This document shows positions 1 to 14,417 of a DNA stretch of 61,333 nt, in pieces. Position 1 is the stretch's first letter; each line of letters opens with the position of its first letter. The stretch is taken from contig JAJDNW010000011.1 in the NCBI GenBank assembly GCA_022340465.1, forward strand, positions 1-61,333, in the 5' to 3' direction. The stretch is from Deltaproteobacteria bacterium (GTDB taxonomy: Bacteria > Desulfobacterota > Desulfobacteria > Desulfobacterales > B30-G6). The position numbers and the translations under genes were made by a program. The notes beneath the pieces are model-generated. The model searched no databases. It saw nothing but the letters and a program-made list of their open reading frames with translations, and had not been told where the DNA came from.

Positions 1-1928
1 CCGAGATGGTCCGAGCTTTCCACCAAGTGCACCGGACAGCCTTGCCTCGACAGAGAAAGCGCGGCCGTCATGCCGGCAACCCCGCCACCCACGACAAGAG
101 CGGCGAATCTTACCGGCAGCTCCGTTTCCTGAAGCGGGCCGGCCAGAAAAGATTTTGCAACCGCCATCCGAACCATATCCTTGGCCTTGATAGTCGCCAG
201 GTCGGGATTGGCGGCATGAACCCAGGCATCCTGGTTTCGAATGTTGGCCATTTCCACAAGATATTTATTCAATCCGGCATTCATCAGCGTTTCCTGGAAA
301 AGTGGTTCATGAGTTCTGGGTGTACAAGCCGCCACTACGACCCGGTTCAGATTTTGCTCTCCAATGACGGCGGTCATTTTATCTTGGGTGTCCTGTGAAC
401 AGGTAAAAAGATTTTCTTCGACGTAAACAACACCGGGTAGTTCTTTTGCGTATTCGACAACGTCGGGAACACGAACGATTCCGCCGATGTTGATGCCGCA
501 GTTGCAGACAAATACGCCGATGCGCGGTCTTTGCCGTCTCACATCCTTCTGGGCCGGCACTTTCAAAACACGGGTTTGCGTGTTCCGGGCCGGGGCGAGT
601 TTTTCCGTTGCCGCGCAGGCTGCAGCACTGGCTTCCATTACCGATTGGGGAATATCCTTCGGCCCGGTAAGAACACCACAGGCGAATATGCCGGGAACCG
701 AGGTGGCCACCGGATGGAAGCTGTCGGAATCGGTAAAATGATGACGATTCAACCCGATGCCGAGCGTCTCCGACAACCGAACAACCTCAGGGTCGATATC
801 CAGCCCGGTGGAGAGAACGACCATATCGAATGTCTCCACTGTAAGAAGGCCTTCCCCGTCGATATAGCGCAGGGAAAGATCGTCGGTTCCCGTCACCGAT
901 TCCACCGTGTGGATCCGGGACGGAATAAAGCGGACACCCGTTTTTTTGGCCTTTTCAACATAGCGGTCAAAATCTTTTCCCTGGGTTCGCAAGTCCATGT
1001 AGAAAATGGCACAATCGAGCGCTTCGTCGCTGTGATCGCTTGCCATAACCGCCTGTTTGACGGCGTACATGCAGCAGACCGAGGAACAGTACCCATTGTC
1101 ACAACGATTGATTTCGCGCGACCCGACACACTGCAGCCATGCGATTTTACGCGGGTGTTTTCCAACCGCTTTTTTGCCTCGCATGCTGGAAGGCCGCAAC
1201 AGGTGGCCGGCATAGGGACCGGTGGCGGAAAGGATGCGCTCAAATTCGAGTGACGTAACCACATCCGGCAGCGTATGGTAGGCGTAAGTTTCGAGTCCGG
1301 CCGGATCGAAAGCCTTGAAACCGGGCGCCAGGATGACCGAGCCCGCCTGCAGAGAAAGCTTTTTGCCCGTGTCGTTGAAATTGATGGCTCCGGAAGGACA
1401 GTATTGTTCACAGGCACCGCATTTTCCCCCCTTTTTCAGGAAAATACAGTTTTCAGGATCGATGGCGTATTTAAGCGGTACGGCTTGGGAATAGGAAACA
1501 TAGATCGCTTTGCGCTTGGTAAGGCCCTCGTTGTATTCATCCGCCACTTTTCTGGGACATTTTTCCGCGCACACTCCGCAGGCGATGCATTTTTCCATGT
1601 CCACATATCTCGGACGCTGAAACACAGTGACCGTGAAATCGCCCTCTTTCCCGTCGATGGCGACAACCTCCGAAAGGGTTAGCAGTTCAATGTTGATATG
1701 CCGGCCGACCTCGACCAGTTTGGGGGAAATAATTCACATGGAGCAGTCGTTGGTGGGAAATGTTTTGTCAAGTTGCGCCATGGCACCGCCAATTGCCGGC
1801 GATTTTTCCACCAGGTAGACATAAAAACCTGCGCTGGCTATATCCAGTGCAGCCTGCATGCCGGCAATCCCGCCGCCGACCACCACCACAGCTCCCTTAA
1901 TATCTTCAACGTTTCGATCTGGATTCAT
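1..1928 (-). CDS. hdrA: HdrA-like FAD/iron-sulfur oxidoreductase, selenoprotein (3' end beyond window)
   Basis: This is a cytoplasmic flavoprotein of the heterodisulfide reductase subunit A family, which moves electrons between ferredoxin, FAD and disulfide or other partners, often by flavin bifurcation. The N-terminus has a Rossmann FAD motif (VVVVGGGIAGMQAA). An in-frame TGA (1734-1736) follows the motif FPTNDCSM and is followed by IISPKLVE, where homologues carry Cys or Sec, so it is read here as selenocysteine. Two 4Fe-4S motifs come next (CIACGVCAEKCP and CGACEQYCP), then the HdrA motif CDNGYCSSVCCMY, a CNCGINIGG segment and, near the left edge, a second GGGVAGM FAD motif. The two FAD motifs indicate a long, duplicated HdrA. 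The ATG at 1928 is chosen because AGAGG lies about 8 nt upstream and the FAD fold starts soon after. It is the last visible gene of a sigma-54-type operon with two receiver proteins. The partner cannot be named from the window. Read with the TGA as a stop, the gene would wrongly appear as a 64-residue peptide. Confidence 0.9.
1701..1718 (-). promoter_or_regulatory. Bacterial SECIS element for the hdrA selenocysteine codon
   Basis: The transcript reads CUGGUCGAGGUCGGCCGG. The stem CUGGUC pairs with GGCCGG (two G-U pairs) and encloses the loop GAGGUC, whose GGUC matches the apical loop known from the E. coli fdhF SECIS. The stem begins 15 nt after the UGA, within the distance range of bacterial SECIS elements. 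SelB should bind it. The element overlaps coding sequence, as is normal in bacteria. Confidence 0.75.
1734..1736 (-). other. In-frame UGA selenocysteine codon in hdrA
   Basis: The TGA interrupts an otherwise continuous HdrA frame that stays open from 1733 to the window edge. The residues on both sides (NDCSM and IISPKL) match the conserved motif in which HdrA proteins have Cys or Sec. A SECIS-like hairpin begins 15 nt downstream. A sequencing error is unlikely because flanking homology is continuous without a frameshift. Confidence 0.85.
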
Positions 1929-2482: not shown

Positions 2483-3172
2483 CTACCAGGCTTCTCTTTC
2501 CAGACGTTTGTAGATAAACATGAGTTGTTTTTGGGTAAGCTCACCGACATTCTGGTTGATCCATTTCAGGTCTCCGGAGACAATCGCCGCCTTGGCCTCG
2601 CTGGAGAGGTGGTATCCCTCCAAGGCACTGGAGCCGTTTTGCATCAAATCTTTCCAGAAGTCGGAATCTTCAGCCGTTCGATTCAGAACCTGCGTAACCT
2701 CCCGCTTCTGGATGAGCCTCTGTTCCTCTGTTTCAGCCTTTTGGGCTTCTGTCTTGACTGCCGTTTCCTCTTGGGTCGACAGCGCTTCGGCAATGGCGTT
2801 TTTGATCTCTTCTTCGGTAAAAGGCTTGGGCAAAAAATCATGCACCCCCATTTTCATGGCCTCCACGGCCGTGGCGGTGGTACCATATCCCGTGATGACG
2901 ATTACCTCGGTTTCGGGTTTCTGTTCTTTGACCTGCCTGATGATTTCCATGCCATTGATATCGGGCAGCCGGAGATCGGCAACCAGCAGTTCAAATTTCT
3001 TTTCCCGAAACGCCTTCATGGCCAGCTCGCCCGTACCGGCGAGAGCAACATCATACCCCTCTTCGGTAAGAACCATCTCCAGGCCCTTGGCAACGGTTAC
3101 ATCATCCTCCATGACCAGAATATGGCGAGGAATGTGGTCTACGCCAAACCGGTATTCTTGTAATGCCGTCAT
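2483..3172 (-). CDS. Response regulator with receiver and C-terminal LigA-like helical domain
   Basis: The protein has 229 residues. Residues about 17-130 form a receiver domain (MEDD acidic pair, phosphoacceptor in LLVADLRLPDING, ITGYGTT, LPKPF). A Glu/Lys/Gln-rich, probably coiled-coil linker follows at about 130-165. The tail (about 165-229) contains FWKDLMQNGSSALEGYHLS, then EAKAAIVSGDLKWINQNVGEL. This resembles the small helical LigA-like domain found in protocatechuate dioxygenase alpha subunits and in some regulatory proteins; the assignment is by pattern only. There is no DNA-binding motif. An AGGAGG ribosome site lies just upstream of the ATG. It is the first gene of the transcript from the -24/-12 promoter at 3233-3248, ahead of the single-domain receiver and hdrA. 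Confidence 0.85.
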   Translation of the reverse strand: MTALQEYRFGVDHIPRHILVMEDDVTVAKGLEMVLTEEGYDVALAGTGELAMKAFREKKFELLVADLRLPDINGMEIIRQVKEQKPETEVIVITGYGTTATAVEAMKMGVHDFLPKPFTEEEIKNAIAEALSTQEETAVKTEAQKAETEEQRLIQKREVTQVLNRTAEDSDFWKDLMQNGSSALEGYHLSSEAKAAIVSGDLKWINQNVGELTQKQLMFIYKRLEREAW

Positions 3173-3485: not shown

Positions 3486-4898
3486 TCATCGAGGGGAAAT
3501 CTTGTGTTTTTTCAGAAGTGTCGAAAAATTGGACCGCTGCATGCCGACACGTTTAGCGGCATGGGTGATGTTCCAACCGGCTGCCTGCAGGGCTTTTCTA
3601 AGGAATTGTTTTTCGATGGGGCCATAATGCGTTTCGATGATTTTCGATTTGATCTGTTTTAGTTCATTCAGGGTCTGCGGGTCATTCCCGGTCGAGTGGT
3701 CATCCCCGGTATAGAGATTGCTTAAAAGGTGGCGGTATCCCAATACGTTTCTGTCGGACATGATGACCAGTCGTTCGACGATGTTTTTTAGCTGCCGCAC
3801 ATTGCCCGGCCAGTCGTAAGCAATCAGCACCTCTATGGCTTCATCTGAAAAGCCCTTTATTTGCCGCCCCATCTCCTTGCTGAAGGTTCGCAAAAAGTGA
3901 TAGGCCAATCTGGGAATGTCGTCCCTGCGATCTCTCAGGGGAGGGATGTAGAGCGGAAGGACATTGAGGCGATAATAAAGATCTTTTCTGAAAAGGCCGT
4001 CTTGGGTCATCTTCTTTAAATCCTGGTTGGTTGCAGCGATGACGCGTAGGTCCGACTCCCTCGCGTGGCTTGCTCCCACCGGTTTGTACTGGTGGAACTC
4101 CATCACTCTTAGGAGTTTAGCCTGGAACTCGCAGTTTAAATTGGCGATCTCATCCAAGAACAGGGTGCCACCGTCGGCAATTTCAAAAATACCTGCTTTG
4201 TTCTGAGAGGCTCCCGTGAAGGCACCTTTGACGTGTCCGAACAATTCGCTTTCGAGGAGTGTGGAAGAAAATGTGCTGCAATCGATGGCGATGAACTGCT
4301 TAACCGCACGTTTGCTGTGGGCGTGGATCGCGTTGGCAAACAACTCTTTGCCGGTGCCGCTTTCTCCGATGATGAGGACCGTGCTGTCGGTCGGTGCGGC
4401 CTTGCGGATTTCATCAAATATTTCCAAAATTTTTGGATTTTTACCGATGATATTGCTGAAATCGAATTTTGCGAAAAGCTGTTCCCGGAGGATGAGGTTT
4501 TCCTCTTTCAGCCGTTTGTTCTCAATGGCCTTGGCAGCCGACAGGCGCAGTTCGCCATCGTAAAAAGGTTTGGAAAGGTAGTCGAAGGCCCCCAGCTTCA
4601 TGGCTTCTACGGCGTTTTCTACCGAGGCATAACCGGTCATGACGACAAGGTTCACTGCAGGCTTTTCCTGGTGTATGCGTTTTAGGATTTCCAGTCCGTC
4701 CATGTCCGGGAGTTTAATATCGATCAGAACCAGATCGTAGTCGTTGCGCAGGGCATGGGCGACACCTGCAACGCCTGTCTCTGCAGCCGTTACCTGGTGG
4801 CCGGCTTCGCCCAGCACCAGCTTGCAGGCATCGCAAATCACCTTTTCATCGTCGATGACAAGAACGCGGGCCGGGGTGATCTTGGTTGTCGATCTCAA
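3486..4898 (-). CDS. NtrC-family sigma-54-dependent response regulator
   Basis: This is a 470-residue transcription activator with the classical three-domain layout. The receiver (about 10-125) has the phosphoacceptor in LVLIDIKLPDMDG. The AAA+ domain (about 145-380) has Walker A GESGTGKE, the sigma-54-contacting GAFTGA loop, the GGTLFLDEI Walker B region and the RDLYYRLNV motif. The Fis-type helix-turn-helix is at the C-terminus (GWNITHAAKRVGMQRSNF, about 440-465). The start is TTG at 4898 with a GAGGGA ribosome site about 7 nt upstream. The kinase gene lies immediately upstream on the same strand. It probably activates the -24/-12 promoter at 3233-3248 and perhaps the kinase/SpoVR operon. 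Confidence 0.95.
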   Translation of the reverse strand: MRSTTKITPARVLVIDDEKVICDACKLVLGEAGHQVTAAETGVAGVAHALRNDYDLVLIDIKLPDMDGLEILKRIHQEKPAVNLVVMTGYASVENAVEAMKLGAFDYLSKPFYDGELRLSAAKAIENKRLKEENLILREQLFAKFDFSNIIGKNPKILEIFDEIRKAAPTDSTVLIIGESGTGKELFANAIHAHSKRAVKQFIAIDCSTFSSTLLESELFGHVKGAFTGASQNKAGIFEIADGGTLFLDEIANLNCEFQAKLLRVMEFHQYKPVGASHARESDLRVIAATNQDLKKMTQDGLFRKDLYYRLNVLPLYIPPLRDRRDDIPRLAYHFLRTFSKEMGRQIKGFSDEAIEVLIAYDWPGNVRQLKNIVERLVIMSDRNVLGYRHLLSNLYTGDDHSTGNDPQTLNELKQIKSKIIETHYGPIEKQFLRKALQAAGWNITHAAKRVGMQRSNFSTLLKKHKISPR

Positions 4899-4981: not shown

Positions 4982-6220
4982 TTATTGAATAAGAGGAAGG
5001 CTGATGGTAAATCGGCACCCGCCTTCCTCGAGATTCTTCATGTTCAGGCGGCCCTTGTGATTGCGGATGATACCGTAACTGACGGACAATCCAAGCCCGG
5101 ACCCATCCTGTTTGGTGGAAAAAAAGGGATCAAAGACCCTGCCCATCTGCTCCAGTGGGATGCCGGGGCCGGTATCGGAAATATGGACGACGATCCGTTT
5201 GCGGGAGGAATCCTCCAGGGTCTGGATCGTTATGCGGCCGTTCTTGTCAATCGCCTGGGCGCCGTTCAACAACAGATTGACAAAAACCTGTTCGATCTGG
5301 CCCTCATCCAACAAGGTTGGACTGATGTTGTCCGCTAAATTTCTGGCAAGCGTTATGTGCCGCAGTTTGAATTCGTTTTCCAGGATCTTATAGGATTTTT
5401 CGAAGATGTCATTGATGTTGGACAGAACTTTGGTCGGCTCTTGTTCCCGGCTGAATTCCAAAAGTTCCTGTATGATCACTTTACAGCGCTTTGTCTCGCG
5501 GATGATGATGCCCAACCCCTCGTGAAAGGGGCTTCCGGCAGGCGCCTTTTTATACAAGTTGGAGCTGTAAAGGAGAACCCCGGCTAAAGGGTTGTTGATT
5601 TCATGGGCAATACCGGCCGCCATGCGGCCTAAGGCAGACAGTTTTTCCGTGTGCAGGGCCAGTTGGTCATATTTGGTTTGCTGGTCTTCGATATAGCGAA
5701 CCTTTTCGATCGCGCAGGCACATTGGGCCGCGAGCGATTCAAGAAACTGGATTTCCTCTTTTGAAAAATCCCGGGGTGTGTCGAAGCAGATGCGCAGTAT
5801 GCCGGCGATCTGGTTTCTGAATTTGAGGGGTACGTCGATGACCTTCTGGATGCCTTCGGTGGCGATCTCTTTTGGATATTGAATTCGCGGATCGTGTTGA
5901 ACATCCTTGATAACGATGGCTCGATTTTCTTTGTACAAATCGGTGATCAGATTTATTTGGGTTGCCGGCCTTTTGGACAGGTATTCCTCGCTCAATCCAT
6001 ATGCCGAGTTGAGCTCCAACTCCCCCGTATCCAGGTTCAGAACCCGCAGCATCGTACCCTTGGCGTTCAGCGCTTCGGCCGCCTTCCAGACCACCAGTTC
6101 GAGAACTTCCTGCAATTCCGTGCTGGAATGGACCATTCTGCTGATTTCCCGAAATGCATTGTAGAACGTTTCTATCTTCTTTAATGACTTCATATGCTTT
6201 CCGTTTGCTGTCAGCGGCAT
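4982..6220 (-). CDS. GAF-domain sensor histidine kinase
   Basis: This 412-residue histidine kinase has no transmembrane segment, so it is cytosolic. An N-terminal GAF domain (about 25-185) could bind a small ligand or sense redox state. The dimerisation/phosphoacceptor H-box is GRMAAGIAHEINNPLAG (His about 205). The HATPase domain shows the N box (NLLLNGAQAI), G1 (DTGPGIP) and G2 (GSGLGLSVSYGI). ATG at 6220 follows AAGGGG closely, and an internal ATG (MKSLKK) is an alternative start. It sits 18 bp downstream of the long PrkA-like gene and 83 bp upstream of the NtrC-type regulator, linking the PrkA/SpoVR genes to the sigma-54 circuit. Confidence 0.93.
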   Translation of the reverse strand: MPLTANGKHMKSLKKIETFYNAFREISRMVHSSTELQEVLELVVWKAAEALNAKGTMLRVLNLDTGELELNSAYGLSEEYLSKRPATQINLITDLYKENRAIVIKDVQHDPRIQYPKEIATEGIQKVIDVPLKFRNQIAGILRICFDTPRDFSKEEIQFLESLAAQCACAIEKVRYIEDQQTKYDQLALHTEKLSALGRMAAGIAHEINNPLAGVLLYSSNLYKKAPAGSPFHEGLGIIIRETKRCKVIIQELLEFSREQEPTKVLSNINDIFEKSYKILENEFKLRHITLARNLADNISPTLLDEGQIEQVFVNLLLNGAQAIDKNGRITIQTLEDSSRKRIVVHISDTGPGIPLEQMGRVFDPFFSTKQDGSGLGLSVSYGIIRNHKGRLNMKNLEEGGCRFTISLPLIQ

Positions 6221-6238: not shown

Positions 6239-8611
6239 TCATTTCGCGAATTTATCGGCAAGCTCATGATCGATGACATAGATGCAGATCTCCTTGGCGC
6301 CCTGCGGCGTATATTTGCTTTTCTCGCAAAGATTGGACATCAAGAAGGTGACGTCCTCCCGTATGCGCCGGTCGTGGGACTTGAACGACGCTTCGTTAAA
6401 ATCCTTGATCGCCTGACGGAAATTTTCATTTTTGAGGAAGGGCTCAAGCACCTTTTCCTTCAGGTTGAAAACGTAGCGCTCGTGCAGGCTTTGATAAAGC
6501 TCGGTTTCCTTTAAGGGGATCCCCTCCAGCATCACCTCCTGCGTCATCGTCTTGGATGCGTATGCTTTCTGGGTGTCGTACCTGAAGGACAGGCGCTTCT
6601 TTTCATCCTGACTTTCCCCCAGCAGCCGGCGCTCGATGCCCTCGAAAAATGCATCTGAAATCTCGATCCGGTCACCGGTAAAAATACAGGTGGCCACGCT
6701 GCCAAGGTCAAAATTGCTCGCAAAAAGGTAGTTCAAAAGGTCCCTTTCAATTTGAGCCTCGTTGTAATAGTAAAGCGACTCCTTCACCTCCTGCAAAATG
6801 GTGTAATCATACATATCCAGCAGCGAAACGAGAAACTGATCGGGAATCGAACGGTTCAAATCCTGACGTATCTTGGTAAAAAACAGGCACAGCGTGGACA
6901 TGTCGATAAGCTTGTCCTCTCTGGCGTATTCGGAGTAAAACTCGCTGAAGATCTTAATTGAATCCCGTCCCGAAAAGCCACGGGCGCCCTCTGAGACCGA
7001 TTCAGCGATTATTTTCCGGCGCCGCTTGGCCGTGAAGCGTTTGCGGTCCTCTTCGGTAAGCCAGGAAGGGATGTACCCGGTGTATATCTCCATTTTCAGA
7101 AGCTGCAGGTTTTCGTCGCAATAGCGACCGTATTTTTTAGGATCGCCGATCCATTCCAGAAGTGCTTCGGATTTGGTACTCAAACGCGTCGATATGATGA
7201 CACGGGCGAAATTGTGCAGCACGCGCGGAAGGAAACTGTCGTCGATATGCCTGCCGAAAATATTCCGGTAAATGGCGACTTCCGTGTTGAGGTCGAGCAC
7301 ATAGGGAATGTTTATGTATTCGATGCGGTCTGAAAACGACGGCAAATTCTGCACATTTTTTTTGTCTTCGGGGTTCATGAGCGCCATGAGCAGCGAGTTG
7401 ACGTTTTCTTCGATATCTTCAACCTTGTGGACCCCTTCACTGATGATGTTGTGAAGTTCGATCAAACGCTCTACGTTATGCGACTTGATATCCATGAGGG
7501 CGTAAATGCCGTTGTTGGTTTTAGCATACCGTGAAAACAGATATTTCACCTGGTTGCTGTCACGCAGCAGGTTGTTGATGCGGTTCTGCAGTACCGGGTT
7601 GCCCATGATGTTCTGACGCATGGGACGGTCACCAGGATTGAACACGCTGATGCCCTCCCCCAGCCGCCGGTTGAACTGATAGGGGCGCGCGTAAAGCATG
7701 CGAAACACCTTCAAAGGATTCTTGAGTCTTCTCAATAAAGCCCAGTAAATCGAACTGCAAATGGTGCAGGACGAGTCCCTGAAAATCCATTCATACTCTT
7801 TTTCCGTAAAGAGCTTCCATTTAAATTCATCGTTGGCAAGCAGGTCGTCCAGAAACCTACGCCGGTAATGCTTGGGGATCATGACGATGGGGTGGTCATG
7901 GCTCGGGCAGGGAACCTCTATATATTCTTCATCGGCCTGCTCCGCTTCTCCGGCCTCGCGTGCCTCCCCCCACTCCCTGACCGGAAACGGCATCCCGGCC
8001 CCCGCATCGTTTTCATCAACATCCTCCCGGCTGGAAAAGGGCGCCATCACCTCGACCACCTTATCAAAGATTGGGATCCTTTCCTCCTCGGTCAGACGGC
8101 CCAGAAGATTTCGATCGAGACGCCACAGCGATTCGAACCGGGAGCCTTCTTCTGTCTTGGTGTACTCCTCGAATTTCATCAGGAGATTGTTTAAAAAGGT
8201 GCTCTTGCCGCACCCCGGCGGCCCGTGAAAAATATAGATCTTGTTTTGTTGCGTGCCCCTCCTGAGCGCCTCCACCTGTTCCATGAAACGGTTGGCAAAG
8301 AGCCTGTCGGCGAAAAAGGGATGATCGGTCCCTTCCACAAACAGCTCCGCGCAGTCGTAGTTCACGAAGTGGATCGATTCGGGGTCATCGGGATATTCGT
8401 CCTCTTCTTCACTGACAAAGGTTTTGATCATGTCGTGAAATACCTGGAACACATTCCTCAAGACCTGATGCGGCCTCGCAACCATCGTTTCCAAAAACTC
8501 CTCAAATGAAACCGGCATGTTATGATGACGGTCGCTGATAATACGGTCCAGGTTCTGCATGGCCGTGCCGACCTGGCGGCCGCTCTCTTTTTCGGGTCCC
8601 GGCTTTTCCAT
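6239..8611 (-). CDS. Long PrkA-like AAA+ serine kinase/ATPase (second paralogue)
   Basis: This 790-residue AAA+ protein is related to PrkA/YeaG. Walker A is GPPGCGKST (residues 130-138). The segment CPSHDHPIVMIPKHYRR resembles the Cys-His motif of PrkA proteins and is followed by CTIC, a possible metal site. An acidic, low-complexity insertion (about residues 190-235) interrupts the ATPase region. The C-terminal half contains the PrkA-type helical region. At 790 residues it is longer than typical PrkA (about 640-690) and is clearly distinct from the other paralogue at 11906-13966. It lies 9 bp downstream of the SpoVR gene and 18 bp upstream of the kinase gene, so it belongs to the same transcript. 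The kinase activity and its targets are inferred from the family. Confidence 0.8.
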   Translation of the reverse strand: MEKPGPEKESGRQVGTAMQNLDRIISDRHHNMPVSFEEFLETMVARPHQVLRNVFQVFHDMIKTFVSEEEDEYPDDPESIHFVNYDCAELFVEGTDHPFFADRLFANRFMEQVEALRRGTQQNKIYIFHGPPGCGKSTFLNNLLMKFEEYTKTEEGSRFESLWRLDRNLLGRLTEEERIPIFDKVVEVMAPFSSREDVDENDAGAGMPFPVREWGEAREAGEAEQADEEYIEVPCPSHDHPIVMIPKHYRRRFLDDLLANDEFKWKLFTEKEYEWIFRDSSCTICSSIYWALLRRLKNPLKVFRMLYARPYQFNRRLGEGISVFNPGDRPMRQNIMGNPVLQNRINNLLRDSNQVKYLFSRYAKTNNGIYALMDIKSHNVERLIELHNIISEGVHKVEDIEENVNSLLMALMNPEDKKNVQNLPSFSDRIEYINIPYVLDLNTEVAIYRNIFGRHIDDSFLPRVLHNFARVIISTRLSTKSEALLEWIGDPKKYGRYCDENLQLLKMEIYTGYIPSWLTEEDRKRFTAKRRRKIIAESVSEGARGFSGRDSIKIFSEFYSEYAREDKLIDMSTLCLFFTKIRQDLNRSIPDQFLVSLLDMYDYTILQEVKESLYYYNEAQIERDLLNYLFASNFDLGSVATCIFTGDRIEISDAFFEGIERRLLGESQDEKKRLSFRYDTQKAYASKTMTQEVMLEGIPLKETELYQSLHERYVFNLKEKVLEPFLKNENFRQAIKDFNEASFKSHDRRIREDVTFLMSNLCEKSKYTPQGAKEICIYVIDHELADKFAK

Positions 8612-8620
8612 CGCGCCAAC

Positions 8621-10273
8621 CTACAATTCACGTCTGCTGAGTTTTCGATTTTCCATCTTGTATTCCACCCGCCGCCAGACGATGCCTCCCGGTTCACCGT
8701 CTACTGGTGTCGAAATGGCCGGATAGGCTGCCGGTGTCGGTGGTTTTTCAGGTGTCCTGGCCGCCACTTCGCTGGTTTCCAACTTGACCGGTTTGCCCCA
8801 CAAATATTCGATGCCCATCATGGTGTTGGCGATGAACTCCTTCACCAGGGGTTTGCCTTCGAAATGATGCACCAAATACAGTTCCTGACCGTCGTCATCC
8901 CGGTCTTTGACGGTGATATGGGGAGGATGGTAGAGTGTATTCCCAATCATCTTTAGGTACTCACCGACATCGCGACTTCTGACGTAGTATTCCCAAACCA
9001 TCTTTGTTTTGTTCAGCCTCTTTCCGGCCACAAATAGGTTGTGGCGGTTCATGAACTCCTGGGTCAGAAAGATGTTGATGAACATGGAGTCGCAGAAATT
9101 CTCACGTACGCTGAAAATATAGTTTCGGCCTTGGCCGGTTTCGGCGTCAAACGTCTTTCTCGCCCCGGCATCCCTCAGACGCTGGAACGCAAAAGCGTAG
9201 CGGCCCTTGTCGGCCATCTCCTCGATTTCTGAAAAAAGCCGCATTCCCAATGCGTAGGGGTTCAAGCCCACGCGCGGCAGAAAGGTCACCGCGGCGTTGA
9301 CCCTGGCAAAATCCACTTCGTGGCCACGGATGCGCTCGTCCTCGATAAACAGCCGCTCGTGCCAGTAGCTGGCCCACCCCTCGTTCATGATCTTGGTACG
9401 GATCTGCGGCTGGAAGAACAGGCTGGTCTTGCGGACAACCTGCATCACCGTTTTCATCCACCGGTTCTCTTCCCTGTTCAAAACGTCCGAGTGCTCCATC
9501 AGATATTGAAGCAGGTCCAGGTGCCCGTCGGATTTCTTTTCCAGGTTTTTCTGGAACAGCGCCCGGAACTCCGGGTGCTTCTTCTCTACTTCCGCAAAGA
9601 ACGAGTCTTCGCCCAGCTCGCCGTTTTCACCTATGCATTGGTTGTAGCGTTCTATTTCCTTGACATACGTGTTGATCTGGACATTCAGAACCGTCTGCAG
9701 AAAAATGTCGAAATAGTAATTCAACCGCTTGCTCTGATCGTCTCGGGTGCCGCCGTTCATTTCCGCCAGCGTTTCATGATACCCCACCAGGTTGTCTATG
9801 CCCCTTGCGAATTCAATGACATAGTCCACCCACTTGTTCTTTTCAGCCCGCAGGCGCGCGATCAGACGCTTGTCCGCCAGTGCCTGACCGGTAAAATCGT
9901 AGTCCCAGGTGTGTTGAAAGTAGATATTGTTCTGAAAAAAATCGATGTGCCCCAGCACATGATAGAAAATCATCACGTTGAGCCAGTCGGGGTTGTTGTC
10001 GTTGTAAAAGGAGATCGCCGGGCGTGTGTTGATCACGGTCTCATACGGGTTGCCCGGATAAAGCTCATACTTCCCTTTTTCCTTGAGCACTTCCACATCG
10101 TGCACCCAGTAGTCGTAGAGGGTCGGTATCATCAACTTGGGAGACAGTTCCAGAAGGTCGCGGTTGGTGACGATGTATTCCAGACTTTCGTCCTCGAAAC
10201 GCAGCCCGGCCTCCCGGGCGCGTTCCTTGCAGCCCTCCATGATCTTTTTGGTATGTTGGCCGATGAGCTCCAT
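8621..10273 (-). CDS. SpoVR/YcgB family protein
   Basis: This 550-residue soluble protein belongs to the SpoVR family, named for B. subtilis spore cortex formation and represented by YcgB in E. coli. Its biochemical activity is not established. Visible family signatures are FYHVLGHIDFFQNN, VGYHETLAEMN, MNEGWASYWHERL and LPRVGLNPYALG; the conserved His and Glu residues suggest a metal site. SpoVR proteins commonly co-occur with PrkA and DUF444 (YeaH) proteins, and all three are adjacent here on one strand. The C-terminal 40 residues are proline- and charge-rich. The start at ATG 10273 gives a full-length family member. It ends 9 bp before the second PrkA-like gene. Confidence 0.93.
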   Translation of the reverse strand: MELIGQHTKKIMEGCKERAREAGLRFEDESLEYIVTNRDLLELSPKLMIPTLYDYWVHDVEVLKEKGKYELYPGNPYETVINTRPAISFYNDNNPDWLNVMIFYHVLGHIDFFQNNIYFQHTWDYDFTGQALADKRLIARLRAEKNKWVDYVIEFARGIDNLVGYHETLAEMNGGTRDDQSKRLNYYFDIFLQTVLNVQINTYVKEIERYNQCIGENGELGEDSFFAEVEKKHPEFRALFQKNLEKKSDGHLDLLQYLMEHSDVLNREENRWMKTVMQVVRKTSLFFQPQIRTKIMNEGWASYWHERLFIEDERIRGHEVDFARVNAAVTFLPRVGLNPYALGMRLFSEIEEMADKGRYAFAFQRLRDAGARKTFDAETGQGRNYIFSVRENFCDSMFINIFLTQEFMNRHNLFVAGKRLNKTKMVWEYYVRSRDVGEYLKMIGNTLYHPPHITVKDRDDDGQELYLVHHFEGKPLVKEFIANTMMGIEYLWGKPVKLETSEVAARTPEKPPTPAAYPAISTPVDGEPGGIVWRRVEYKMENRKLSRREL

Positions 10274-10493
10274 AACACAAAACCTTTTTTCGGCGGTTAC
10301 ATCGTCGTTTTTTCTTCTTTTTGGCGGAAGCCGCTCATCATTGCCCCCTCAAACCCAAGGCATCCTTTCGATATGCCGCCTTGAAAATATCAGGAACGGT
10401 CATGCACGCCATTCGTAACGCTTTTCTGGCGATCACGATAGAAGGACGCTGCTGTTGTCTACCAAACACAAATCACGACACACCAAACACCGG

Positions 10494-11888
10494 TTACGAA
10501 ATCAACCGTTTTATGCCCTCGATCAACCGCGGTTCATCCGCATTTTCCCGCACGGCATCCAGCCTGAGAAGCTCCTTTTTTTCGTTCAGCAGGCCGGATT
10601 TTCCGATATATTTCTCCACTTCCGTTCCGCGGTGCGTGGTGCCGGCATGCTCGGCGATGGTTATGCCTACACGGTTGGCATAGGTCAGCATTTTTTTCAG
10701 TTCGGGAAGGGCCTCCACGCCCTCCTTGTCCCAGTCGTCGCCATCCGTCCCGTGGAAGACATAGATATTGTAGTCCCGTGACAGGCTCTCCGCTTCCACG
10801 ATCTCGTTCACCAGACGGTAGGCCGAAACCACCTTGGTGCCGCCTGCTACCCTGGAGTTGTAGTAGGTATAGAAATCGTCCACCTCCTTGGCCGACGTGT
10901 CGTGGAGGATGAAGCGCGACTCCACTTGGCGGGCGTACTGATAAAGCAGCCAGCTGTAGATCAGGACATGCTGGGTCACCACCAGTTCGGTCACCTTGCC
11001 CTGCATGGAGCCCGAGTAATCGCGCAGGAAAAATATCATGGCCTGGGATTCGTAGTCCTTCTCCTTGGAAAGGATGCGGTAGACCCTGTCCGCGGGCGTT
11101 ATCAGAAAGCGGGTCGGGTCTATGGCGAAGGGGTCTGTAAGGTTGCCCAGGTTGATGTTGGTCTCCACGATTTCACGCAGGGTCGCCTTCTTGTCGAGCA
11201 CCTGGCCGAATCCCTTGTGCTTGTCTGTCAGGTCGTAGGTGTAGCGCGTCAGCGACCGTTTTTTTCCCTTGTCCTTGAGGTTGGGCAGTTCGAACTTCTC
11301 GGTCAGTATCCTGCCCAGGTCGTAGGCGCTGGATTCCATTTCATGGGGGCCCTCTTCACCTTCCCCGGGGCCGGCACCGCTGCCGGGTTCGGGCGTGCGC
11401 ACCGGCTCTTCGCCGATCACCTCGCCCTCCTGGCCGTCACCCGAACCGCCGGAAGCCTCTTGTTCGTCATCCCGCACCGCCAGCTTGTCATGGATGAATT
11501 TTTCTTCGACCGTCGTGGGCACCACCACGACGCGGTCCTTTCCGCCCCGTCCCGGCTTGACCATGCGGCCCACCCGGATTTTCCGGGGAAACCCGTCCGC
11601 TTCCCGCTGCTTGTCCTTTTCCAGCAGTTCGTCCAGGGAGCGCAGCCCGGCATGATAGTCCCCCGAAGCGAGCCTCATATCCTGGAGAACCGACAGATCG
11701 TGATAGTCATAAAATCCGTCCACATTGCCCTGAATTTTCTCGCCGCTGCCCGGGTCCCTGACAATTCTGTCCTCCGGAACGCCGTGCGACCCCTCGAACC
11801 GGACCTCCGCCAGGACCTTCTCCTCCTCCTCCGGCGTCAGCCCGCGGACTTTTAATTTTTTATATAGGTCGATCAGGCTTTTGTTCAC
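10494..11888 (-). CDS. yeaH: DUF444/YeaH family von Willebrand factor A protein
   Basis: This 464-residue protein has an N-terminal charged region, a Gly/Glu/Pro-rich low-complexity linker (about 125-185) and a C-terminal von Willebrand A-like domain. The MIDAS-type motif is DYSGSMQGK (about residue 300), and HGTDGDDWDKE follows later. DUF444 proteins are encoded next to PrkA/YeaG across proteobacteria and are thought to work with the kinase; the mechanism is unknown. The start is GTG at 11888 with TGGAG 7 nt upstream. The gene follows the PrkA/YeaG gene by 17 bp. A 220-bp spacer separates it from spoVR, with no obvious ORF or terminator. Confidence 0.93.
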   Translation of the reverse strand: MNKSLIDLYKKLKVRGLTPEEEEKVLAEVRFEGSHGVPEDRIVRDPGSGEKIQGNVDGFYDYHDLSVLQDMRLASGDYHAGLRSLDELLEKDKQREADGFPRKIRVGRMVKPGRGGKDRVVVVPTTVEEKFIHDKLAVRDDEQEASGGSGDGQEGEVIGEEPVRTPEPGSGAGPGEGEEGPHEMESSAYDLGRILTEKFELPNLKDKGKKRSLTRYTYDLTDKHKGFGQVLDKKATLREIVETNINLGNLTDPFAIDPTRFLITPADRVYRILSKEKDYESQAMIFFLRDYSGSMQGKVTELVVTQHVLIYSWLLYQYARQVESRFILHDTSAKEVDDFYTYYNSRVAGGTKVVSAYRLVNEIVEAESLSRDYNIYVFHGTDGDDWDKEGVEALPELKKMLTYANRVGITIAEHAGTTHRGTEVEKYIGKSGLLNEKKELLRLDAVRENADEPRLIEGIKRLIS

Positions 11889-11905
11889 GGTTTACTCCAG
11901 CAATT

Positions 11906-13966
11906 TTATTTCTCATCCTCCTGGGTACAGAAGTACTCAATCGTCTTCTGGGCACAGGTGTTGCAATACCCCAGCTTGTTGAGCATCGTGTCTATCATGC
12001 GGTCGTAAAGTTTCTGATTCTCCTCGTTTGTGCGGTTGGCCAGAGCGCCGATCAGACTCCCGGCGCCGGCGATGTCGGATTTCAACCGGACGTCGGTCAC
12101 CGCCTTGACCAGTTCGAGGTTGTCCATGAAGTCATAGTCCGGGTCCACGGAAATCTTCTGACCATATATCTTGCGGATGGAGGTCCGGAATGATTCCCGC
12201 TGCTCTTCGGTTTTCAGGCCCAGCCGCTCCTCGACGCTCTTGATATAGCGCTCGTCCACTTTCAGTGCCTTGAGTTCACCGGTCTGCGGATCTTTGTATT
12301 TCCACATTTTGTCCGCACCCAGGTTTTCGGCGTCGATGCCGATGATCATGTTCACGTAGTTGATCACGTCTTTGCGGATGGCCAGAGGTTCGTCCATATA
12401 GGCGTTGAACATCTCGGTCATGATGCGCTCACGATAGAGGCCCTTGGCCGTTTTCAGGTCCTCGAGGTACTTGACCCTGTCGTTGGCGTCGGTGACATAA
12501 TCCAGGATAACCCGTTCCATGGACCGAAAAATGTCGTAGGCAAACATGCAGCGTCCCTCGTTGGTTTCCGAGCTCTCGATGAGCAATTGGATGGATCTTC
12601 CCAGGTTCCGCTGGCCGAGCCCCTTCTGTCCGAAACGCTTGGTTATGTCCGGGTTCTGGCTCAGGCTGTCGATCACTTCCGCGAGCGTTTTGATGCTTTT
12701 TTCCCCGGCGACCTCCCCGGCGGCCAGTTTCATGGTTTCGATGGGCGTCAGCTTCTCCGACCGCGGCAGCCGCGTCATCACCACCGCCGCCGATGCGGCG
12801 TAGTTCAGGTTGGGATCCTGGTGGAGTTCCTCGCGCAAAAAGGTCGTCCGGGCCTCGCTGCCGATGGCGTAACCCGTGAGGTCTTTCTGCAGTACGTAAT
12901 TGGTGTTGTGCGAGATGTAGGATACCCGGCAGCGGTCGACGATGGGCGCCTCCTCTTTCTCTTCCAGAAAGCGATTGAACTCGGAGTTGTTGGAGGTGGC
13001 GATGATCAAGGAGTCGATGGGCCATTTGAAGCCGTCGATCTCGATGTTGCGGTTCTGGATGACACCGAGATAGACCTGGACCAGGTCCTTCTTATTTTTG
13101 AATATTTCATCGCTGAAGTGAATGCCTCCGCCGGCGACTCGGGCCAGAGCCCCGCGCCGCAGATCAAACCGGTAGGGGTTGTTGGTGTCGATGATGTGCA
13201 GCAGGCGCTGGATGGATTCCTCTCCCAGAAGATCCACGGCCGAAGAGGTGATCTTGTCCTTTGCGGGATATTTCCCGGTTACCGTTCCCAGGCTTTCCGT
13301 GAGCGGCACCGGGAAAATATCGACCATCTGGAGCATTTTGTCCATGTCGCCATCGGTAAAGTTGCGGATGTCGTTCCAGATGTATCCCGAACAGGCCCCC
13401 AATGGCCTGTAGTTTTCATAAAGCCGCTCCACTGCGGCATCGCTGAACCCAAAGCTCTCGCCCAGAAACCGCCGGTTTTCTTCCGCGTTCTCGAACAGGT
13501 TCATGGCCAGGATGGCAGGGTCCTCGTAAGTCTGCGATTCGATGACCGCAATCCTGCCATAGCTTCCCAGCTTATCCATACCGTTGAAGCGGAACGTGTA
13601 CCGGCGGTTCGGATCTTGGGACAAAAACTCACGGTACTTTTCACACACGAATTCAACAAAAAAGGTCTTGCCGTTTCCGGGCTCGCCGACAAGCACATAG
13701 GCCATCTCCTGCGACGAGCCCCCTTCGGCGGCGTCTTTGACATAGGAAACGAAGCTGTTGATCTCGTCGTACATTCCGATCATATGCTTGCGCCCCGTAC
13801 GGAATATGCTGAAATCGTAGGTAGATTTTCCATTGACCGTCACCTTGCCGATGTCGCAGTCGAGGATCATCCTGGCCACGGCCTGAAACGCGTTCTCGAA
13901 ACGCCTGTTGCCGACTTTGACTTCTGACATGTGATGATGAAGCGCCGAATTCGTTTGCTTAGCCAT
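11906..13966 (-). CDS. yeaG: PrkA/YeaG family AAA+ serine protein kinase
   Basis: This 686-residue protein is a PrkA-family AAA+ ATPase with serine kinase activity reported for the family, usually in stress and starvation responses. Walker A is GEPGNGKT (residues 94-101), a GGGIHFSDEIFKNK Walker-B region lies at about 290, and the sensor region IIATSNNSEFNRF follows. The C-terminal half is the conserved PrkA helical domain, ending with ANRTNEENQKLYDRM. The final segment CNTCAQKTIEYFC carries three Cys, a possible metal or redox site. The ATG at 13966 is preferred over a longer frame reaching 14038 because GGGAGGT lies just upstream. It is the first gene of the yeaG-yeaH-spoVR-prkA2 cluster. 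Confidence 0.93.
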   Translation of the reverse strand: MAKQTNSALHHHMSEVKVGNRRFENAFQAVARMILDCDIGKVTVNGKSTYDFSIFRTGRKHMIGMYDEINSFVSYVKDAAEGGSSQEMAYVLVGEPGNGKTFFVEFVCEKYREFLSQDPNRRYTFRFNGMDKLGSYGRIAVIESQTYEDPAILAMNLFENAEENRRFLGESFGFSDAAVERLYENYRPLGACSGYIWNDIRNFTDGDMDKMLQMVDIFPVPLTESLGTVTGKYPAKDKITSSAVDLLGEESIQRLLHIIDTNNPYRFDLRRGALARVAGGGIHFSDEIFKNKKDLVQVYLGVIQNRNIEIDGFKWPIDSLIIATSNNSEFNRFLEEKEEAPIVDRCRVSYISHNTNYVLQKDLTGYAIGSEARTTFLREELHQDPNLNYAASAAVVMTRLPRSEKLTPIETMKLAAGEVAGEKSIKTLAEVIDSLSQNPDITKRFGQKGLGQRNLGRSIQLLIESSETNEGRCMFAYDIFRSMERVILDYVTDANDRVKYLEDLKTAKGLYRERIMTEMFNAYMDEPLAIRKDVINYVNMIIGIDAENLGADKMWKYKDPQTGELKALKVDERYIKSVEERLGLKTEEQRESFRTSIRKIYGQKISVDPDYDFMDNLELVKAVTDVRLKSDIAGAGSLIGALANRTNEENQKLYDRMIDTMLNKLGYCNTCAQKTIEYFCTQEDEK

Positions 13967-14417
13967 TGTTACCTCCCATGCAGTGTGGACTTCGACTTCA
14001 ACGATGAGGTGGGCCTCGTCTTTCAGCCCTGATTGCACCGCCTTTCATGGCCTTCGGCTACCTGTGCCGACGGGAATGTGGGCTCTTGTTCACCAGCGGC
14101 CCTGGTGCCGATACCCCTTGAGAATAAATTTCAGAATTCGTTGTTGTCGCGGGAAATCGTGCACCCTTGGGTTGTGATGGCGCATATCCAGTGAGCGATG
14201 GAACAGGGCGGCATGTTTCCCATGTTCATCTCTGGTAGAAGGTGGGCTGTAACTTGATGACTGAATGCTGCTTTCTACAGATGCCACAGGCATTCTGCAA
14301 GTCAGGGTCGCGTCAGCTGCGATAGATCTGTAAAAACAGTTGGCATAATTTTTCTCGCTGTTTAAGAATAACGATCTATAGACCACTTTTCAACAAAAAA
14401 CGGAAAAATTGATAAAT
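13967..14417. promoter_or_regulatory. Intergenic region upstream of the PrkA operon
   Basis: The 451 bp between the divergent PrkA operon and the Cys-rich protein gene must hold the promoters of both. On the minus strand a weak -24/-12-like sequence, CGGCAC-CAGGG-CCGCT (14095-14110), keeps the GG-N10-GC core but lacks the TT of the -12 box. A 98-codon minus-strand frame (14090-14386) resembles no known protein and is not called. Nothing else is recognised. Confidence 0.3.

Follow-up and report, generated by a model that had tools for sequence, protein, structure and literature searches.

The window analysed here, 61,333 nucleotides long, comprises all of contig C11 in a draft genome of 4.39 Mb and 162 contigs. 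At its left-hand end, on the minus strand, lies an hdrA-like gene (positions 3–1928) that comprises 642 codons when an in-frame TGA is read through and that is truncated where the contig ends. The TGA at 1734–1736 (TCA on the plus strand) corresponds to residue 65 of 642, where open reading frame and alignment to residue 197 of 5odc_A place a putative selenocysteine (Sec), and the translation reads MNPDRN...TFPTNDCSM-U-IISPKLVEVGRHINIELL. It is the sole interruption of the frame, with 577 codons beyond it up to the contig edge. A preceding sequence-only reading had placed the TGA directly after N-D-C-S-M in hdrA, with HdrA homology continuing for more than 570 codons; both statements are borne out, none of the 577 codons being a further stop, and searches against NCBIfam, Pfam and PDB sequences find HdrA homology on both flanks of the TGA. 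Closed homologues longer than 900 amino acids measure 967–1027 residues.

The cut gene does not reach the curated NCBIfam HdrA cut-offs (NF040770, 655.4 of 1100 bits; NF041778, 449.7 of 1400; NF041891, 472.2 of 1300), and neither does the homologue L075, read past its stop to 1202 residues (943.9, 688.8 and 684.1 bits, respectively). HdrA-like is therefore the safe name, and in this broad sense of a flavoprotein with the HdrA fold and its Fe-S and FAD domains the assignment follows from the searches and from a structural model of L075.

Upstream of hdrA, and likewise on the minus strand, Pfam matches identify two response regulators (2023–2400 and 2483–3172), an NtrC-type sigma-54 activator (3486–4898) and a GAF histidine kinase (4982–6220). 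These regulatory genes provide context and lie outside the recoding itself. Histidine kinase, NtrC and the response regulator RR2 adjoin hdrA in 7 of 10 fetched loci, which derive from the best matches and lean to close orthologues, two of them spanning only 8.7 and 10.8 kb. Because these three genes travel with hdrA, sigma-54 control of the HdrA complex is suggested. In many relatives a Sec-containing MvhD is encoded downstream of hdrA; here the contig ends first. Farther upstream, at 6239–14038 (minus strand), genes for a PrkA C-terminal-domain protein, SpoVR, DUF444 and a second PrkA stand in a row (Pfam), an arrangement that we take to resemble the PrkA-YeaH-YcgB stress module. It was rejected as a conserved unit with hdrA, being present in none of the 10 fetched loci.

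The hairpin behind the TGA and its two registers

Folding and comparison place a candidate bacterial SECIS hairpin, CUGGUCG-AGGU-CGGCCGG, at 1701–1718 (minus strand), hereafter register A. Its 7-bp stem carries a 4-nt loop that begins 22 nt after the UGA, with a folding energy of -10.2 kcal/mol. The expectation of a hairpin at SECIS distance thus holds, but not that of GGUC in its loop: the apical loop is AGGU, and GGUC extends from the loop into the stem, covering its first base. A figure legend in PMC13188914 gives the constraints on bacterial SECIS elements as a loop of 3–9 nt, a stem of 4–16 bp, a G in the first two loop positions, a distance of 16–37 nt from the UGA and an energy of at most -7.5, and the register A hairpin lies within every one of them. 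As a single folded sequence the hairpin is no better than chance when compared with shuffles (z from -0.87 to +1.10), the same simple model is passed by 82 of the 2087 TGA triplets of the window, and Rfam at its gathering threshold gives no match anywhere in the window. A sub-threshold Rfam snoRNA match near the TGA site was set aside as irrelevant.

Comparable sites came from three sources: the genome of the window, 30 loci found when 116 genomes of its order were searched, and 80 named GTDB loci. A motif search of 149 loci, duplicates included, found 110 TGA, 10 TGC and 10 TGT codons at the position, i.e., a TGA or a Cys codon in 130 of 130, and the UGA thus aligns with a conserved Cys of homologues, as in bacterial selenoproteins. 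The cultured relatives Desulfocicer vacuolatum DSM 3385 (L103) and Desulfoluna limicola ASN36 (L136) are among those that have TGA here. The genome of the window itself holds the same TGA in six hdrA copies, all six with the exact hairpin, together with at least one Cys paralogue (contig C127). From the 130 sites, 113 distinct ones with the LDKTFPTNDC motif and enough flanking sequence were compared, leaving out duplicates, divergent Cys paralogues (L021, L024, L030/L032 and one L140 site) and sites too near sequence ends; among those left out is the Sec copy L114, the core of which ends in CGT instead of CGG and retains six of the seven pairs.

The exact 18 nt of the hairpin are shared by 94 of 98 Sec copies but by none of the 15 Cys copies (Fisher 2e-15, for rows that are not independent); with the Sec copies clustered at 90%, the count is 76 of 80. 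Over 213 nt the Sec copies share a median nucleotide identity of 71%. Conservation ends abruptly at the stem ends, and synonymous sites on both flanks vary; the His codon right after the stem, for instance, is CAT in 40 and CAC in 39 of the 80 Sec clusters. Because the 18 nt are identical in nearly all Sec copies but in none of the Cys copies, the hairpin stands out above chance despite an ordinary folding energy, and it shows the selection in Sec but not Cys copies that marks a selenoprotein gene. All seven stem positions can form standard pairs in 79 of 80 Sec clusters, a number that includes L115 and L129, which pair this way only with many wobbles and fold in a second register instead, compared with 0 of 15 Cys copies.

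The four departures among the 98 Sec copies are L139 and the three second-register copies L115, L129 and L138. In L139 a U.G pair has become U-A, so that pairing is kept at the cost of a Gly-to-Asp exchange, and the same replacement is found in G010, G346 and G379 in a pattern search of the phylum. Both sides of one pair have changed in G253 (CTG..CGG to TTG..CGA), silently with respect to the protein, while the terminal stem pair is broken in the Sec copies L114 and G225, and G053 has a changed loop, AGTT. In this search, TGA plus hairpin with at most two mismatches was found in 97 of 297 phylum genomes, a few of them by chance (e.g., one match in contig C1 of the genome studied here, G000), compared with 6 of 297, counted by eye, for the reversed pattern. 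Nearly intact SECIS elements also stand behind Cys codons in L061 (genome G106), at G096:C113:15270-15305 and in L212 (G361); these three copies are probably recent changes from Sec to Cys.

Against a null of synonymous codons at 110 sites the bias in energy is moderate, with a mean z of -1.41 for 95 Sec sites (median p 0.10) and -0.36 for 15 Cys sites. Of all 4608 synonymous ways of encoding LVEVGR, the observed 18 nt share first place in stability with one other, which has GAA for GAG, alters the loop and is present in 0 of 80 Sec clusters. All seven pairs are kept by 64 of the 4608 encodings, and the AGGU loop by 32 of those 64. Since stem strength, protein constraint and the required loop G can together explain the freeze, we do not claim a function beyond SECIS for the 18 nt.

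In the second register (register B), L115, L129 and L138 fold as GAGUGC-GGUCG-GCACUU with the loop 27 nt after the UGA. The corresponding 17-mer behind a TGA, with at most two mismatches, occurs in 23 of 297 phylum genomes (reversed-pattern control, 1 of 297). Among the 26 matches listed, 22 are Sec-hdrA (21 without a mismatch and one with a single mismatch), the others being L212, a Cys copy with a near-intact hairpin, L204 and L205, which are not hdrA, and L190, which lacks the TGA. The hdrA copies listed under register B are L115, L129, L138, L191–L203, L206–L211 and L213–L215. Loci L150–L179 and L190–L215 were fetched by the patterns themselves, and their frozen letters, fixed by construction, are therefore not counted as evidence of freezing; informative are only the free codons outside the element, which are codons 12–13 in register A and 6–7 in register B. 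The latter vary indeed, between TTG and CTG and among GTC, GTT, GTG and GTA. Register B is accompanied by Cys for Val at codon 9, and because each register is held nearly letter for letter, the RNA signal would dictate part of the peptide. A FastTree phylogeny without support values, in which the pattern-fetched loci are included, implies at least three changes between the registers and nine between Sec and Cys. One Sec copy in L184 fits neither of the two sequence forms, its letters reading GATGTC-GGTC-GACATC in the +27 register. MvhD, often encoded downstream of hdrA, has a hairpin of its own, ATTACC-N5-GGTAAT, in 49 of 49 Sec copies versus 0 of 8 Cys copies; this frozen Sec-MvhD hairpin is seen in L020 and in relatives among L073–L146, with mvhD beside hdrA.

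Selenocysteine machinery and alternative explanations of the TGA

The sequence-only reading would have been overturned by a genome lacking selC or selB. This has been ruled out, as selA, selB, selC and selD are all present above their cut-offs: selB on contig C44 (374 bits, cut-off 242), selC on C138 (75 bits, gathering threshold 47), selA on C130 (593 bits), and selD on C13 (locus L016 of G000). The last has an in-frame TGA of its own, within GAG-U-ASK, and is on this sequence evidence a selenoprotein gene too. Across the order, a tRNA-Sec match above the cut-off is present in 97 of 116 genomes, at only 50–57 bits in four of them; the remaining 19 have none above it. Several of these 23 genomes, with a weak match or none, carry TGA-hdrA. 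Because 20 of the 23 possess selA, missing contigs are the likely reason for the absent tRNA-Sec matches. The three in which selA was not found are G062, G077 and G106. The only hdrA match of G106 is L061, a Cys copy whose 18 nt differ at one position, whereas G064 of the same genus has both selA and a TGA copy; L061 is a probable SECIS fossil left after loss of selenium use in G106, subject to the incompleteness of that genome (77% complete). Similar SECIS remnants were reported for other families as early as 2006 (passages of PMC1794560).

Judged from the sequence comparison, the TGA is very probably read as selenocysteine, directed by the hairpin behind it. A real stop or a disabling mutation, which would make the gene split or a pseudogene, would agree with standard annotation, where the frame would end at the TGA, and with the ordinary energy of the hairpin alone; such a reading is highly improbable in view of the 577 further codons of HdrA homology that contain no other stop, and of a TGA that recurs in six copies and in many genomes of the phylum together with the frozen hairpin. 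For a sequencing or assembly error that turned TGC or TGT into TGA it can be said that the genome is a draft of 162 contigs with the gene at a contig end. The exact hairpin, however, is absent from all 15 Cys copies and yet present here, and the same site is found in many separate assemblies; with TGA in six copies of this genome and the TGA-hairpin pattern in 97 of 297 phylum genomes, an error is very unlikely, to the point of being negligible.

UGA has been recoded as Trp or Gly in other lineages, and this precedent would allow the codon to be read through general reassignment, or else by SECIS-independent suppression, with the hairpin incidental. The alternative residue, however, is Cys in all sites found, the neighbouring genes at 2023–2400 and 6239–8611 end in TGA, the hairpin is constrained in TGA copies and not in Cys copies, and the genome encodes a complete Sec machinery, which leaves reassignment or suppression hardly any probability. 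Several paralogues per genome share the 18 nt, as they would if these had spread by recent gene conversion or transfer between copies and had no RNA function. Against such a spread stand the sharp stop of conservation at the stem ends, beyond which the codons vary, the median identity of the Sec copies given above, and the second register, in which the element's first two codons are free and another stretch of 17 nt is kept instead; conversion is accordingly a most improbable source of the freeze.

For selenocysteine insertion directed by the hairpin, the following course is proposed. SelB would bind the hairpin whose loop begins 22 nt downstream of the UGA at codon 65 and would bring in the Sec-tRNA(Sec) that decodes this UGA. 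Because the hairpin lies within the coding sequence, selection for it would freeze the synonymous sites of LVEVGR.

Domain order and the predicted role of Sec65

The first HdrA thioredoxin-reductase/FAD domain, with an inserted ferredoxin, is encoded at 591–1889 (minus strand; residues 14–446, corresponding to 146–567 of 5odc_A) and bears the Sec. The alignment with 5odc_A shows no HdrA N-terminal domain ahead of it. Instead, the HdrA N-terminal Fe-S domain lies mid-chain, at 129–533 (minus strand; residues 466–620, corresponding to 2–156 of 5odc_A), and its four Cys residues are invariant in 45 of 45 rows of the alignment. It is followed at 3–128 (minus strand) by the start of a second HdrA FAD domain, assigned from the frame and homology searches, the rest of which lies beyond the contig. 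An AlphaFold2 model of the full-length homologue L075, which is 76% identical to the protein of the window, has a pLDDT of 87.3 and a pTM of 0.87. Its residues 9–446 superpose on HdrA 149–575 (8rwn_A; Z 50.5, rmsd 1.3, 423 aligned residues), and residues 465–1013 on HdrA 2–643 (5odc_A; Z 32.3, rmsd 2.7, 544 aligned residues). Since each half of the model matches HdrA, the protein is, as modeled, a covalent HdrA pair, the final third being taken from homologues because the gene in the window is cut off.

In a gap-free alignment, Sec65 falls on residue 197 of 5odc_A, Cys197 of methanogen HdrA. The FPTxxCxx[U/C] motif is present exactly once, and in the N-terminal half, in 66 of 66 closed homologues longer than 900 amino acids; these were chosen for having one motif, and the count shows that none has a second. 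The motif is absent from the second FAD domain in the seven rows listed of 45, two of which (L074 and L129) have a Cys elsewhere in the stretch. The Cys197 site and the N-terminal domain are thus divided between the two halves in the complementary manner of fused HdrA. According to passages of PMC9012536, Cys197 of one methanogen HdrA ligates the N-terminal Fe-S cluster of its partner HdrA, a cluster on the route of electrons to ferredoxin, and where two HdrA units are fused or in tandem, the N-terminal domain and Cys197 are split between them. The same source names M. wolfeii for the crystallised HdrA, and 5odc is titled M. thermolithotrophicus; we read Cys197 of that paper as residue 197 of 5odc_A.

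By homology to the Cys enzyme, Sec65 is predicted to be the fourth ligand of the [4Fe-4S] cluster of the N-terminal domain and, because both HdrA partners are fused, to close this selenium-ligated site within one chain. The order along the chain would be FAD domain 1 with the Sec, the N-terminal Fe-S domain, FAD domain 2 lacking the Cys197 motif, and a ferredoxin domain, so that Sec65 would supply the ligand that in methanogens is given in trans by the other protomer.

As a whole, we are close to certain that the gene encodes a Sec-containing HdrA-like flavoprotein of a sulfate-reducer-type bacterium, a reading that combines hairpin- and SelB-dependent decoding, frozen synonymous sites, a covalent HdrA pair and Sec65 as a cluster ligand. 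A further joint proposal we consider evenly balanced between right and wrong, namely that registers A and B are mutually exclusive and near-invariant, have part of the peptide dictated by the RNA and have switched at least three times, and that, on the ferredoxin side of an electron-bifurcating flavoprotein, a [4Fe-4S] cluster completed within one fused chain has the Sec as a natural selenolate ligand.

Relation to known selenocysteine-containing and fused HdrA proteins

Sec-HdrA proteins of Deltaproteobacteria, with multiple copies, operons, hdrA fusions and duplications, were described in 2006 in passages of PMC1794560, and the gene in the window belongs to this known kind; the identification is correct and, with such proteins on record since then, ordinary in kind. 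The proteins reported there from Syntrophobacter fumaroxidans and Desulfotalea psychrophila likewise use UGA for Sec with a bacterial SECIS, but the passages concerned, unlike the present comparison, describe neither an invariant 18-nt element nor two hairpin registers. A near-invariant hairpin, its two registers and the prediction of a selenium ligand within a fused chain were not found in the open-access literature searched, which is a weak negative. In Desulfococcus multivorans, too, a Sec-HdrA with UGA and SECIS is described (passages of PMC5109826). The sulfate reducer Desulfobacterium autotrophicum HRM2 also has Sec-HdrA paralogues (HdrA/HdrL) beside mvhD and a complete sel machinery, according to the part of PMC2702500 considered; compared with it, a two-component/NtrC cassette lies upstream here, and the contig ends before the downstream partner.

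Annotation would wrongly divide the Sec-hdrA of the window into two pieces and, as there are six such copies, a substantial share of this organism's HdrA genes would look broken on paper. UGA followed by 15 nt and the 18-nt element, or by 21 nt and the 17-nt element, provides search keys with which Sec-HdrA can be located in genomes lacking annotation, and registers A and B together amount to a natural experiment on the SECIS features that bacterial SelB requires. Should the Sec be a cluster ligand, the effect of selenium on a low-potential Fe-S cluster could be studied in these bacteria. In archaea, SECIS elements are located mostly in the 3' UTR, as stated in PMC13188914 in the part consulted.

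The HdrA of the methanogen HdrABC-MvhADG complex (5odc) has the same domains, with Cys197 aligned to Sec65, but is a single unit, present twice in a dimer of complexes, whereas here two units are fused with the N-terminal domain between them. In the HdrA chain 9sfi_A (also 9t1s), the aligned position is occupied by X, an unknown or non-standard residue, which is probably Sec. The fused or tandem HdrA proteins of ANME archaea and Moorella, as far as covered in the passages of PMC9012536, show the same complementary split of Cys197 and N-terminal domain; in the ANME fusions, however, the half with the N-terminal domain comes first, whereas in the protein described here the Sec half leads the chain.
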